Origin: Lysobacteraceae bacterium
GTDB taxonomy: Bacteria > Patescibacteriota > Patescibacteriia > JAACEG01
Reading direction: 5' to 3'
Assembly (NCBI GenBank): GCA_011682665.1
Contig: JAACEG010000002.1
Location: 1 to 16,200 of the forward strand
Length of the DNA stretch: 16,200 nucleotides
Shown here: positions 620 to 16,200 of the stretch, piece by piece
How positions within the stretch are numbered: position 1 is the first letter of the stretch
Layout of the letters: every line of letters begins with the position of its first letter
Notes under the pieces: model-generated
Databases searched by the model: none
What the model was told of the DNA's origin: nothing
Seen by the model: only the letters and a program-made list of their open reading frames with translations
Translations under genes and position numbers: made by a program

Positions 620-758
620 CCCCGCACCAATAAATTTTGTATGCTTAATTAAATAGTAGGCATAGGTGGACTCGGACCACCGACCCCCACGTTATAAGCG
701 TGGTGCTCTAACCAACTGAGCTATATGCCCTTAAGGTTGATAAATTTATGGTGCGGGG
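620..758. repeat. Inverted-repeat-bounded insert carrying tRNA-Ile inside a tRNA gene
   Basis: The arms 620-637 (CCCCGCACCAATAAATTT) and 742-758 (AAATTTATGGTGCGGGG) are reverse complements apart from one extra A. They abut the two broken ends of the tRNA-Val-like gene and enclose the intact tRNA-Ile gene. In a transcript they would form a helix of 17 bp with one bulge and bring the tRNA halves together. The outer part of each arm is GC-rich and the inner part AT-rich. It could be a mobile insertion, an intron-like arrangement or an assembly chimera. Confidence 0.75.
657..730 (-). tRNA. tRNA-Ile(UAU)
   Basis: This is a complete 74-nt cloverleaf on the minus strand. The acceptor GGGCATA pairs with TATGCCT (first pair G-U), followed by TA, D stem GCTC/GAGC and D loop AGTTGGTTA. 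The anticodon stem is CCACG/CGTGG, with loop CTTATAA giving anticodon UAU. The variable loop is GGGTC and the T stem GGTGG/CCACC. The discriminator is A and CCA is not encoded. The T loop is TCCGAGT rather than the usual TTCNANT, so position 55 is C instead of U. Anticodon UAU reads AUA directly; most bacteria use a CAU tRNA modified by TilS instead. The gene sits between the halves of a disrupted tRNA and probably shares its promoter. Confidence 0.93.
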
Positions 759-13672: not shown

Positions 13673-14881
13673 TTATATTCTTTCTCTTTCACTTTTATTA
13701 TCAACCAACTTAAAAGCGGGATAGAGTCCAGACAAAGACACGATCGCTATAAGTAAAAAAATTAATTTTATATCAAAAGATAATAATAATAAAAAAGATG
13801 ACAAAATGGTGGCAATTATATAACCGACAGGCCTAGAAGTACGGAAAAAATCAATTATATCAAGGTCATAGCCATCAATCTTTTTGTAAAAATAAGAATC
13901 GCGCAAAATTTCTATAATAGAAGCGCCAACGCGCGTGACGAATAAAATTGTTGTTAAAAACAAAATATCTTTATAATTAAAAAGATAAAGAATTAATGTT
14001 GCCACTCCCATTATAAAAATAGAAAAAATTAGGAATTCTTTTTCTCCTGTTTTTTTATCAGCTAAAATTCCAACTGGATATTGAAATAAAACAAATGGGA
14101 TAAGAATTATTGAAAAAACTAATCCTATTTGCGACAAAGAATATCCTATTTGCAAAAAATAAAGCGGTGTATAGATAACCATCAAAGCGTAAAAAAAATC
14201 CAAGACAAAAGAAATATAATAAATCCGCATAATATTTTTTCTTTTAAAAACTCTTTTTAAAAGCTGAATCGTTGTTTCTTTCCTCTTGAATGTATGGTCT
14301 ACCCCTCTAAAGGCCATTAAAGAAATTGAAAAAATTAAAAACTGAATAACAAAAGAAGCAAAAAATATTCCTTTAAATCCAAAAATATCTAAAATTTGGA
14401 ATGATAAAAACGGCGCTAAAATAAAACCAGCGTTACCAATAGTAAGATAAACGCCCCGAATTCTTCCAGACATTTTATCTACTGAAAAAAATTCTAAAAT
14501 GATATCTAAGCAAACCCAGCTCATTGCATCGCCAATAATGTAAATCATTAAAAATATTATCCCCAAAATTGATAACGGCAAATAAAATAATGCAGTTATA
14601 GCAATTATCTTTATAACAAAAGTTAAATAAAAAAGGTATGATTTTCCTATTTTTTGCGCTAATTTATGTAAATTTAAAAAGATGATCAAAATAATCAAAT
14701 AAGAAATCAAAAAAAATATTCCAACATTATCTGTTCCTGATATTACTTTAAAGTAAAGAGATAAAATATAAGCCAATAAAGATGAAGAAAAACCCATTAA
14801 AAAAGAAATAAGATTGGTAAATTTTATATTATCTATATTTAATTTTTCTTTATGATTTAAAAAATTTTCTGCCATAAACAT
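13673..14881 (-). CDS. Major facilitator superfamily permease
   Basis: This 402-residue protein has about 12 hydrophobic helices in two halves. The loop PVGILADKKTGEKEF in the second half is the MFS motif-A equivalent (GxxaDkxGxr), and the first half carries a weaker NLHKLAQKIGKSY. A cytoplasmic linker, FRGVDHTFKRKETTIQLLKRVFKRKN, joins the halves. The substrate cannot be predicted; similar proteins in CPR are annotated only as MFS. The first ATG (14881) is followed two codons later by another ATG, and neither has a Shine-Dalgarno site. It forms an operon with the HAD gene 3 nt downstream. Confidence 0.85.
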   Translation of the reverse strand: MFMAENFLNHKEKLNIDNIKFTNLISFLMGFSSSLLAYILSLYFKVISGTDNVGIFFLISYLIILIIFLNLHKLAQKIGKSYLFYLTFVIKIIAITALFYLPLSILGIIFLMIYIIGDAMSWVCLDIILEFFSVDKMSGRIRGVYLTIGNAGFILAPFLSFQILDIFGFKGIFFASFVIQFLIFSISLMAFRGVDHTFKRKETTIQLLKRVFKRKNIMRIYYISFVLDFFYALMVIYTPLYFLQIGYSLSQIGLVFSIILIPFVLFQYPVGILADKKTGEKEFLIFSIFIMGVATLILYLFNYKDILFLTTILFVTRVGASIIEILRDSYFYKKIDGYDLDIIDFFRTSRPVGYIIATILSSFLLLLSFDIKLIFLLIAIVSLSGLYPAFKLVDNKSERERI

Positions 14882-14946: not shown

Positions 14947-15060
14947 TAGGGGCTGATGACGAGAGCCTTTTCTACTGCAATTTTCATCTTTTGGTCAAAT
15001 TTTCTTCAAATTTTTTTACCTTACCTTAGAGTAGGCTAAAAAAATATTTTAAATAAATTT
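14947..15060 (+). repeat. Modular hairpin repeat, copy 2, rearranged
   Basis: Block A (GGGGCTGATGACGAGAGC, from 14949) is in plus orientation. The following 40 bp are unrelated to the linkers of copies 1 and 3. Block B (15007-15060, CAAATTTTTTTACC onward, including CTTACCTTAGAGTAGGC) is then in the opposite orientation relative to block A compared with the other two copies. The two blocks can thus be arranged independently. It sits between the MFS gene and the terminator of the zinc-ribbon operon. Confidence 0.8.
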
Positions 15061-15084: not shown

Positions 15085-15141
15085 CTTTTTAAAAAAATAA
15101 AGGTTCGTTTGCTTTTGTAATACTTTTACAAACGAACCTTT
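15085..15141 (-). terminator. Strong intrinsic terminator of the zinc-ribbon operon
   Basis: A perfect 13-bp stem, AAAGGTTCGTTTG (15099-15111)/CAAACGAACCTTT (15129-15141), with a 17-nt loop is followed on the minus strand by ATTTTTTT. It starts 8 nt after the stop of the second zinc-ribbon gene. Confidence 0.9.
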
Positions 15142-15148
15142 CTGGCTG

Positions 15149-15358
15149 CTAATCAAAAGTCGGTGATTTAGAAAATTTCGCCTCCTTTTGATAGCCACAT
15201 TTAGGACATAAAAAAAATCTTTTCGTGTTTGTGTTTCCCCAGGGTCCGTTTATTTCCCTGGCCTCTTTTCTCATCGGTTGCCCACATTTTGGGCAAGTCT
15301 TAATGATAAAATTTGCTTTATTCTTTTTAATCCTTTTAATATCAAGAAATTCCCACAT
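15149..15358 (-). CDS. Tiny zinc-ribbon protein, second gene of the T-box operon
   Basis: This 69-residue protein has a two-knuckle zinc ribbon, C22-PK-C25-G and C51-PK-C54-G, separated by a basic loop (MRKEAREINGPWGNTNTKR). The N-terminus MWEFLDIKRIKKNK resembles MRELLDIKKMNQ of the upstream gene, so the two may be tandem relatives. A strong Shine-Dalgarno site, AAGGAGG, lies 5 nt before the ATG. Zinc ribbons of this size usually bind nucleic acid or protein partners, but no specific family is recognised. It has a dedicated T-box leader and terminator, so its expression probably answers to the charging of one tRNA. Confidence 0.8.
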   Translation of the reverse strand: MWEFLDIKRIKKNKANFIIKTCPKCGQPMRKEAREINGPWGNTNTKRFFLCPKCGYQKEAKFSKSPTFD

Positions 15359-15387
15359 TTTAACCTCCTTCTACTTTTGTTTTTTAT

Positions 15388-15549
15388 TTAATCTTTTTTC
15401 CATCCGCATGGGCACTTTCTGTAGGCATCTTCTACAACACTATAATCCCTACTAAGTACGTTAATGGAGATAAGTTTTTCTCCACATCTCGGACAAAAAT
15501 TAGGTCTTTCTGTTTGATTCATTTTTTTAATATCTAATAATTCCCGCAT
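15388..15549 (-). CDS. 53-residue zinc-ribbon protein, first gene of the T-box operon
   Basis: Translating from the ATG at 15549 gives 53 residues: MRELLDIKKMNQTERP, then CPRCG (C19, C22), a middle part with LISINVLSRDYSVVEDAY, and a C-terminal CPCGWKKD (C46, C48). The four cysteines suggest one bound zinc. A textbook AAAGGAGG site sits 6 nt upstream of the ATG, which fixes the start. It is the first gene after the T-box terminator and is separated from the second zinc-ribbon gene by 29 nt. The function is unknown. The closest conceptual parallel is Bacillus anti-TRAP, also a 53-residue zinc protein behind a T box, but the cysteine pattern differs and I claim no homology. Confidence 0.8.
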   Translation of the reverse strand: MRELLDIKKMNQTERPNFCPRCGEKLISINVLSRDYSVVEDAYRKCPCGWKKD

Positions 15550-15598
15550 AGCTCCCTCCTTTATTTGTTTTGATGACTTTATTTTTACTTTTTTAAAA

Positions 15599-15652
15599 TA
15601 AAAAACTTCTCATCTCTTTATCCAAAAAAAATTAGATAAAGGGACGAGAAGT
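15599..15652 (-). terminator. T-box regulatory terminator
   Basis: On the minus strand ACTTCTC (15646-15652)/GAGAAGT (15605-15611) and CTTTATC/GATAAAG form a long stem that includes the conserved CGTCCC. A run of T follows. This is the off-state hairpin that competes with the T-box antiterminator at 15660-15675. Confidence 0.88.
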
Positions 15653-15950
15653 CTTATTTCCCGCGGTGCCACCCTTGGTTCCCAGCGCTAATTTCATTTT
15701 TTTAAAAAATAAAGAAATTAAATTAGCGCTAAGCACTTTTACTGACTCCGGACTAGGTTAAACATCTTAGATAGTAAACTATCTATTGCCTTAAGGGATA
15801 TCAGTTATCCTATGGTTACGGAGGAAGCCGAATCTCCACTAACGCAAAGATCATCTTTTCACAAAAAATGTGAATAAATTAGACCCAACCCTTTGAATTA
15901 AAATTCAAAGGATCTAATTTGTAGATTTTATGATTATCAAAATTACTTTT
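15599..15950 (-). promoter_or_regulatory. T-box riboswitch leader (tRNA-sensing)
   Basis: The signature T-box sequence AGGGTGGCACCGCGGG occupies 15660-15675 on the minus strand. The conserved CGTCCCTTT follows inside a terminator stem. A Stem III-like helix, AGCGCTAATTT/AAATTAGCGCT (15684-15694/15720-15730), precedes it. Upstream are a helix AGATAG/CTATCT (15769-15784), a hairpin GGATA-ACTGA-TATCC (15796-15810) and a long 5' hairpin (15876-15920). UGGC in the antiterminator bulge would pair with GCCA, so the sensed tRNA should have discriminator G. I could not identify a canonical Stem I or specifier codon. Uncharged tRNA would stabilise the antiterminator and turn on the two zinc-ribbon genes. 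Confidence 0.88.
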
Positions 15951-15978
15951 ATTAAAACACAAATAAAAAATTTGTCAA
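15951..15978 (-). promoter_or_regulatory. Promoter of the T-box operon
   Basis: On the minus strand a perfect -35 TTGACA (15973-15978) and a -10 TTTAAT (15951-15956, one mismatch) are separated by 16 bp. The predicted start near 15944 gives a leader of about 395 nt before the first zinc-ribbon ATG. Confidence 0.65.
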
Positions 15979-16106: not shown

Positions 16107-16200
16107 TAGGGGCTGGTGACGAGAGCGTTTTCGTAACGAAATTTTTAGATTTTGAGACAAATTTTTTAAATAATTTTTTTAGCCTACCCTAAGGTAAGGT
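16107..16200 (+). repeat. Modular hairpin repeat, copy 3 (reaches the window edge)
   Basis: This is block A (GGGGCTGGTGACGAGAGCG) followed by the linker TTTTCGTAACGAAATTTTTAG and block B up to the last base (AGCCTACCCTAAGGTAAGGT). It aligns base for base with the reverse complement of copy 1, apart from a few substitutions and the 21-bp palindrome missing here. Copies 1 and 3 therefore form an inverted repeat spanning the window, and copy 3 is cut off by the window end. Confidence 0.88.

Follow-up and report, generated by a model that had tools for sequence, protein, structure and literature searches.

We propose that a tryptophan-specific T-box riboswitch, apparently of the transcriptional class, controls an undescribed family of small zinc-ribbon proteins which are induced by Trp starvation and serve as regulators or adaptors in some Patescibacteria. 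We put the probability of this reading at about 0.6. The case starts from a stretch of 16,200 nucleotides (hereafter the window; contig JAACEG010000002.1) belonging to a draft genome of 679 kb that is 76% complete.

Read on the minus strand, the unit consists of a promoter-like site, a structured leader, two short genes and a terminator, in this order (Table 1). Its content is limited to the 53- and 69-residue genes and the terminator, and the next gene on this strand past that final terminator starts at 14881. The promoter-like site, about 220 bases downstream of the contig end (16200), is omitted by the promoter scanner, which requires the second hexamer to have A as its second base.

Table 1. 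Elements of the T-box unit, in window coordinates
Feature	Position	Strand	Basis and remarks
Promoter-like site	15951..15978	(-)	TTGACA 15973-15978, 16-nt spacer, TTTAAT 15951-15956; read from sequence
Short Stem I	15876..15920	(-)	lower helix 8-9 bp, specifier side bulge on 3' side, upper helix 9 bp, 4-nt loop; covarying helices; fold -14.3 kcal/mol
Specifier UGG (Trp codon) inside GUUGGG	15885..15887	(-)	equal placement in five aligned leaders
Linker hairpin, Stem I to Stem II	15858..15874	(-)	both-side changes in 2/5 pairs
Stem II, conserved loop UGCGUUAGUG	15831..15852	(-)	both-side changes in 5/6 pairs, five sequences
Stem IIA/B pseudoknot region (CGG..CCG; UCCU with AGGA)	15807..15830	(-)	aligns to CGG..CCG element of Rfam model
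Stem III region, base ACUGA..UCAGU	15741..15806	(-)	read from sequence and leader alignment; pairs not counted
Long hairpin inserted between Stem III and antiterminator	15684..15730	(-)	inverted repeat, 21-nt arms, 90% complementary
Antiterminator with T-box sequence AGGGUGGCACCGCG (15662-15675)	15639..15676	(-)	-10.3 kcal/mol
UGGC bulge for tRNA end	15668-15671	(-)	within antiterminator
Intrinsic terminator competing with antiterminator	15600..15652	(-)	-25.1 kcal/mol; ACUUCUCGUCCCUU common to both; then U6
ORF 1, 53 aa, zinc-ribbon-like (CPRC ... CPC)	15388..15549	(-)	preceded by AGGAGG; single-sequence fold pLDDT 75
ORF 2, 69 aa, zinc ribbon (CPKC ... GPWGN ... CPKC)	15149..15358	(-)	preceded by AAGGAGG
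Terminator closing transcript	15091-15141	(-)	fold -17.5 kcal/mol, then T7

The T box, whose presence had been claimed in the preliminary description, is real. The Rfam model RF00230 matches 15637-15871 (-) along its whole length (model positions 1-219) with 36.1 bits, albeit below the gathering score; a search of 441 bases gave E = 1.5e-6, and one of the entire genome 5.3e-7. The leader folds better than its shuffled versions (z -7.5; none of 100 shuffles as good). When the gathering threshold of 93 bits is applied, the window T box is not listed, 36.1 bits falling far short of it; this score is a curation threshold and no functional feature of T boxes. In common with transcriptional T boxes of RF00230, the leader has a specifier, Stem II, the Stem IIA/B pseudoknot, Stem III, the T-box bulge and a competing terminator. 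Unlike them, it has a short Stem I of 45 nt, which lies immediately 5' to the Rfam match and carries the specifier in a side bulge. It lacks the double T-loop, for which 15876-15920 offers no room. The T-box sequence lies in an antiterminator that competes with the terminator, all three are intact, and the switch looks to be of the transcriptional class. T-box surveys are available in TBDB (PMC7778990) and in a survey of 2008 (PMC2494555).

Comparison of five related leaders adds covariation to this anatomy. Both-side changes occur in 18 of 34 pairs, a number reached by none of 500 shuffles (mean 5.3). The common structure leaves 98% of cells paired, as against 34-55% when partners are slid by 1-3 columns; it was drawn from the same five sequences, which favours it. 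Covariation is strong in Stem II. It is limited in the IIA/B pseudoknot, where both-side changes affect one of four pairs and 85% of cells are paired.

To follow the switch through the class, a covariance model spanning Stem I to IIA/B was run over 380 genomes at E <= 0.01. It matched 44 places in 42 genomes, including two in the window genome. All were kept, 34 of them being strong (E 7e-10 or better) and ten weak (E 1.3e-5 to 0.009), some of the latter with a seemingly longer Stem I (e.g. L042, L173). By this model the Trp T box is present in one genome of the same genus (G001) and in one of the four other genomes of the same family (G003), and absent from the remaining three (G002, G004, G005). 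The second clear T box of the window genome, on contig C79 (L004 2506-3139), has the same unusual short Stem I and drives a lone 80-residue protein, which has no zinc ribbon and no Pfam match. The terminator that closes this unit nearly duplicates the one at the end of the window unit, so that the genome holds two cassettes with different cargo. A third, weak match (C16, E 0.09), with no small Cys-rich ORF among those listed, was dropped.

Other cargo was seen behind Trp T boxes. A motif like that of low-molecular-weight phosphatases, [VI]C.GNI[HQ]RS, follows the switch at 4 of the 44 loci (L101, L153, L161, L175); Pfam confirms the family membership of one such protein (L101). Beside this type of cargo, a sulfotransferase-like ORF was recognised by eye in G001 and G306, the one in G001 being without a Pfam match. 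In G373, G364 and G239 the first gene behind the T box encodes a protein of 265-267 residues (L147 2934-3737, L151, L167), for which no Pfam or NCBIfam match was found with the L147 protein as query.

The switch should sense tryptophan, because its specifier is UGG, the tRNA-Trp of the host carries G73, and trpS, trpB or trpD genes stand behind the same switch in relatives. In the window genome, tRNA-Trp has anticodon CCA and discriminator G73, which fit the UGG specifier and the UGGC bulge, respectively. All five tRNA-Trp genes collected from five genomes, the window genome included, have G73. The pattern search for them covered 30 genomes, 23 without a match, and allowed a gap of 15-19 (the window genome's tRNA has 14); seven of its ten matches were given to ARAGORN, which called four tRNA-Trp, and L343, L344 and L349 were left out. 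Among the 44 matched leaders, UGG stands between a pyrimidine and a purine in 43, and the remaining partial match starts at UGG. For G231 and G373 the specifier search returned an earlier chance UGG, the bulge UGG being present too, as seen by eye. Opposite the discriminator, 25 of these leaders have C in the bulge, 19 have U and none has A or G, as expected for G73; 51 other surveyed T boxes have mostly A here (31), and U (11), C (7) or G (2) in the rest.

Gene context agrees with this assignment. A trpS, trpB or trpD motif lies within 3.2 kb of at least 23 of the 44 Trp loci, a lower bound, since inspection by eye shows trpS-like ORFs in G272 and G353 that the motif calls overlook, but near none of 49 other T boxes (p = 5e-10). 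NCBIfam confirms example trpB and trpS genes (L325), and the trpD-like gene in L150 falls below the NCBIfam trpD cut-off. We are close to certain that the window contains a Trp-sensing T box. Since the same switch drives trp genes in relatives, it is less odd than its cargo.

Two observations on neighbouring genes are recorded here. A gene of the BtpA/SgcQ family follows trpD-like genes behind Trp T boxes (L165 1920-2726; by eye also L070, L172, L174) and may be part of an unusual tryptophan or indole route. In two Staskawiczbacteria, tyrS genes (L321 5270-6403, L327 4153-5274) are found downstream of a T box with UGG specifier and a small Cys-rich ORF, a position that the UGG specifier does not explain.

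Is the cargo of the window unit an isolated case? We searched within 2.5 kb of each T box for ORFs of 30-100 residues with a Shine-Dalgarno sequence and two Cys pairs. Such an ORF was found at 12 of the 44 Trp loci and at none of the 49 other T boxes (p = 5e-5), and the difference persists without the model's five seeds (9/39, p = 4e-4); three loci with a masked stretch in the first ORF (L166) or short downstream sequence (L155, L167) were counted as misses. The 12 loci belong to seven families, and all are among the 34 strong matches. The same rule applied to the antisense strand of the Trp loci gave none in 44. The 49 controls are what remains of 62 pattern-recognised T boxes after removal of 11 in the Trp set and two with too little downstream sequence (L081, L082). 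They come from a survey of 144 genomes that overlaps with the 380-genome sample but differs from it, and should be read as other T boxes, not as a set free of Trp-sensing ones: at least one (L046) precedes trpE-like and trpG-like ORFs, as seen by eye, and may itself be a Trp T box. T-box recognition gave no pattern match in 21 fetched loci, two of which are in the Trp set. When a further species collection, with some overlap, was scanned with a DNA pattern, nine loci emerged, five of them new. In four of the new ones, from two Staskawiczbacteria, a Parcubacteria and another Patescibacteria genome, a small Cys-rich ORF comes first.

The reverse figures define how far the association goes. No such ORF lies within 2.5 kb at 32 of the 44 Trp loci, nor in any of 70 trpS upstream regions (0.9-1.7 kb each; 30 + 40 of 93 hits in 89 of 95 genomes). 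These 70 do not comprise the trpS loci of G029, which lies behind a leader peptide with a zinc-ribbon ORF, and of G048, which lies behind a T box. A general linkage of the small Cys ORF to trpS is ruled out by these upstream regions, and from both counts it follows that the protein is dispensable and rare. Moreover, trpS was not found in the window genome at its 76% completeness. The missing ORFs, the missing trpS, the different second cargo and the weakness of the motif that unites the family lower the claim of a core function, not that of a regulated one.

Support for the Trp connection came also from a different kind of leader. A profile of eleven small Cys proteins was run over the 380 class genomes. 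Its own members score E 2.5e-12 or better, the next 14 matches lie between 8.5e-7 and 3.8e-4, and six of these are in open frames below 100 residues (L189, L191, L195, L197, L201, L202), short frames having been examined among matches up to E 4e-4. In three genomes (G029, G202, G171) the homologue stands behind a short ORF with WWW, WPW and WWW, respectively, followed by hairpins and T runs; compared with shuffled versions, these leader stretches fold more stably (z -3.7 to -6.4). Outside the class, G610, one of 379 phylum genomes, is arranged likewise, its leader carrying WW and having FWN at its end. The homologue is followed by trpS in G029 (family match) and in G171 (by sequence). Such an arrangement has the form of a Trp leader-peptide attenuator and would act by attenuation. 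Attenuators of this kind, as in the enterobacterial trp operon, sense stalled ribosomes and not tRNA directly. In these four genomes the short Trp-rich ORF takes the place of the T box; it is absent from the window.

The leader rule that finds all four positives detects no Trp-rich leader ORF in the 450 bases upstream of the small Cys proteins of G002 (L195), G138 (L197), G183 (L202) and G412 (L314), and in G699 (L305) the contig ends 20 bases upstream of the homologue. Owing to the Trp leader peptides before homologues, the connection to Trp starvation has support independent of the T box, and we consider it very likely that a conserved link of this kind exists.

In G002, of the same family as the window genome, three small Cys-pair ORFs lie close together on contig C184 (L195); the matched one is without a Trp-rich leader ORF. 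In G001, of the same genus as the window genome, a leader-like peptide, MLNRVWNWIWNV, is located about 230 bases upstream of trpS (L285), for which reason the genus may use both Trp mechanisms.

The two window proteins share a strong Shine-Dalgarno sequence and two Cys pairs each. Their genes are 73% identical over 44 nt around the starts and their products 29-33% identical, and they look like tandem duplicates. In a family alignment of 14 rows four Cys are invariant, usually arranged as CPxC plus a further pair. Most rows place G[WF]G between the two pairs, so that the family can be written roughly as CPxC...G[WF]G...C(x1-5)C. The window proteins, small and with two Cys pairs around a G-aromatic-G motif or similar, belong here, RDYS replacing the motif in ORF 1. 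WG falls within the last eight residues in 7 of 22 such proteins. Both proteins are putative zinc binders. The model of ORF 2 has three strands (pLDDT 82-85 for residues 21-60, 68 overall), and its neighbours are zinc ribbons of the RNA polymerase small-subunit, Rpb9 and TFIIS types; the best match is weak (E 0.066), and we take the likeness as a hint to the fold only.

Known families do not account for these proteins. Neither ORF reaches the cut-off of any Pfam or NCBIfam model among the matches listed; those to Zn_Ribbon_1, YnfU and Lar are weak Cys-pattern matches below the curated cut-offs. We know of no description of Zn_Ribbon_1, YnfU or Lar proteins under Trp control. Searches with either single window protein gave nothing at E <= 0.001 in 94 relatives and are uninformative, hence the family is defined by the four Cys, the G-aromatic-G motif and the context. 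A phage origin was also considered and rejected: PHROGs matches are weak (best 2.7e-4, eight proteins), and the exact T-box DNA pattern has no match in viral contigs.

The nearest known counterpart is anti-TRAP (AT, RtpA/YczA) of Bacillus subtilis, which is controlled by a tRNA-Trp T box; the window unit is similar in size, Cys pattern and T box, and zinc binding is predicted for its proteins. The Cys spacing of anti-TRAP differs from that of the window proteins, and the ORF 2 model leans, weakly, towards Rpb9/TFIIS-type ribbons. TRAP itself (PF02081) was above cut-off in none of 285 class genomes, the window genome, 76% complete, giving no match, one genome (G269) a weak one and B. subtilis, the positive control, a match. 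Since TRAP is missing at this cut-off, the window proteins must act on another target. No anti-TRAP family is found among the Pfam matches listed (six for ORF 1, the best 25 of 66 for ORF 2) and the family profile's 15 PDB matches at E <= 1 include no anti-TRAP chain, both weak tests with proteins this short. On the TRAP result and the missing PDB chain we reject literal anti-TRAPs and homology to them. Bacillus anti-TRAP is, according to PMC11255114, made under the same signal, tRNA-Trp starvation.

The preliminary description had named anti-TRAP as the nearest parallel, and because the trigger, tryptophan, is the same, the parallel is closer than was then supposed, even though the window proteins are not anti-TRAP itself. 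It is borne out by the T-box match and by homologues that lie behind T boxes in relatives, at the 12 Trp loci and the new ones, with a homology that rests on a weak profile. The undescribed amino-acid-starvation response making small zinc proteins, which it had suggested, gains support and can now be assigned to tryptophan, zinc binding and regulatory role being putative.

The unit would work as follows. When uncharged tRNA-Trp(CCA) accumulates, its anticodon would recognise the UGG specifier, while the GCCA end would base-pair to the UGGC bulge. With the tRNA bound, the leader would form its antiterminator, and RNA polymerase would read into the two small paralogous zinc-ribbon genes. With charged tRNA-Trp, the terminator would stop transcription. 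Both tRNA binding and antitermination switching are suggested by the conserved anatomy. The proteins would be starvation-induced regulators or adaptors that bind protein or RNA, doing a job like that of Bacillus anti-TRAP on other targets. This role is the tentative part of the proposal, and we give it somewhat less than an even chance.

Could the zinc ribbons instead be accessory or assembly partners of TrpRS and TrpB, the window unit having moved away from the enzyme genes? Such an ORF does share its locus with a trpS-like gene in nine genomes (G109, G272, G236, G231, G226, G256, G263 (C27), G029, G171) and with trpB in three (G341, G231, G226). However, the stretches read of the window genome, G003, G302 and G150 contain no trpS, trpB or trpD motif, the same holding by eye for L323, and the 70 trpS upstream regions devoid of the ORF indicate that the enzymes work without the protein. 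We therefore regard a partner role as unlikely and favour a regulator or adaptor, as no trp gene is near in the window genome and several others. Small ORFs of this composition might also serve mainly as a second sensor, Trp codons in G[W/F]G and a C-terminal GWG making their translation Trp-dependent, with feedback to the genes downstream or to their own amounts, in the manner of Trp-rich leader peptides. Trp indeed accounts for 27 of 1331 residues (2.0%) in 22 proteins, compared with 37 of 4449 (0.8%) in 12 larger window genes, and the terminal WG noted above fits as well; nevertheless, the enrichment is modest against an assumed background of 1.2% (p = 0.007), the conserved Cys pairs imply a folded product and the window unit has no downstream gene to regulate, which makes a sensor function quite improbable.

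It is very unlikely that the unit is a relict, that is, a Trp T box deprived of its trp genes, whose present small genes would be unrelated and serve no selected purpose. The cargo behind the same switch is varied (an 80-residue protein, the LMW phosphatase family, the sulfotransferase-like ORF seen by eye, and others), and the window unit has on either side a copy of a repeat with 71 occurrences in the genome, as would suit a relict. Yet neither protein has lost its strong ribosome site or its Cys pairs, and the same type of cargo recurs in seven families and behind a different, Trp-rich kind of leader. That it recurs with two Trp-sensing leaders of unrelated kinds speaks for a function under selection. 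Finally, it is extremely improbable that the leader is no functional T box and owes its resemblance to chance or decay: the 36 bits obtained, set against a gathering score of 93, have to be weighed with an E value of 1.5e-6, compensatory pairs, a specifier and a discriminator contact fitting the same tRNA, and an intact terminator.

The repeat just mentioned, CTCTCGTCANCAGCCCCTA, is present at window positions 14947-14965 and 16107-16125 (-) and at 69 other places, in all 71 copies with at most two mismatches, while its reversed control gave none. Often two copies face outwards, about 145-220 bp from each other, in the manner of the ends of small mobile repeats; the T-box unit has copies on both sides, and several others are close to the start of a contig. 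Elsewhere in the window (656-730, minus strand) there is a gene for tRNA-Ile with anticodon UAU, in addition to a tRNA-Ile GAU elsewhere in the genome. To our knowledge, the UAU anticodon is unusual in bacterial tRNA-Ile.

A regulator or adaptor made under Trp starvation invites a bolder version, which we hold to be rather unlikely in its full extent. Patescibacteria, lacking TRAP, may have evolved, independently of Bacillus, tiny zinc ribbons that report Trp starvation through a short-Stem-I transcriptional T box or a Trp leader peptide. Acting in trans, these general starvation effectors would target the machinery of transcription or translation, and their own Trp residues would limit their synthesis when starvation is severe.

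If our main reading is true, the unit is a natural case, outside Bacillus, of tRNA-Trp starvation being turned into a small zinc protein. It would also extend T-box regulation to a reduced, uncultured bacterial group; a full-text search, outside of which most subscription papers fall, found no paper on T boxes in Patescibacteria, the Candidate Phyla Radiation or Parcubacteria. The apparently transcriptional T boxes of this group have a short Stem I, contrary to the general rule that transcriptional ones need the long form. The genes behind the Trp switch would then make up a concrete list of uncharacterised proteins tied to tryptophan supply.
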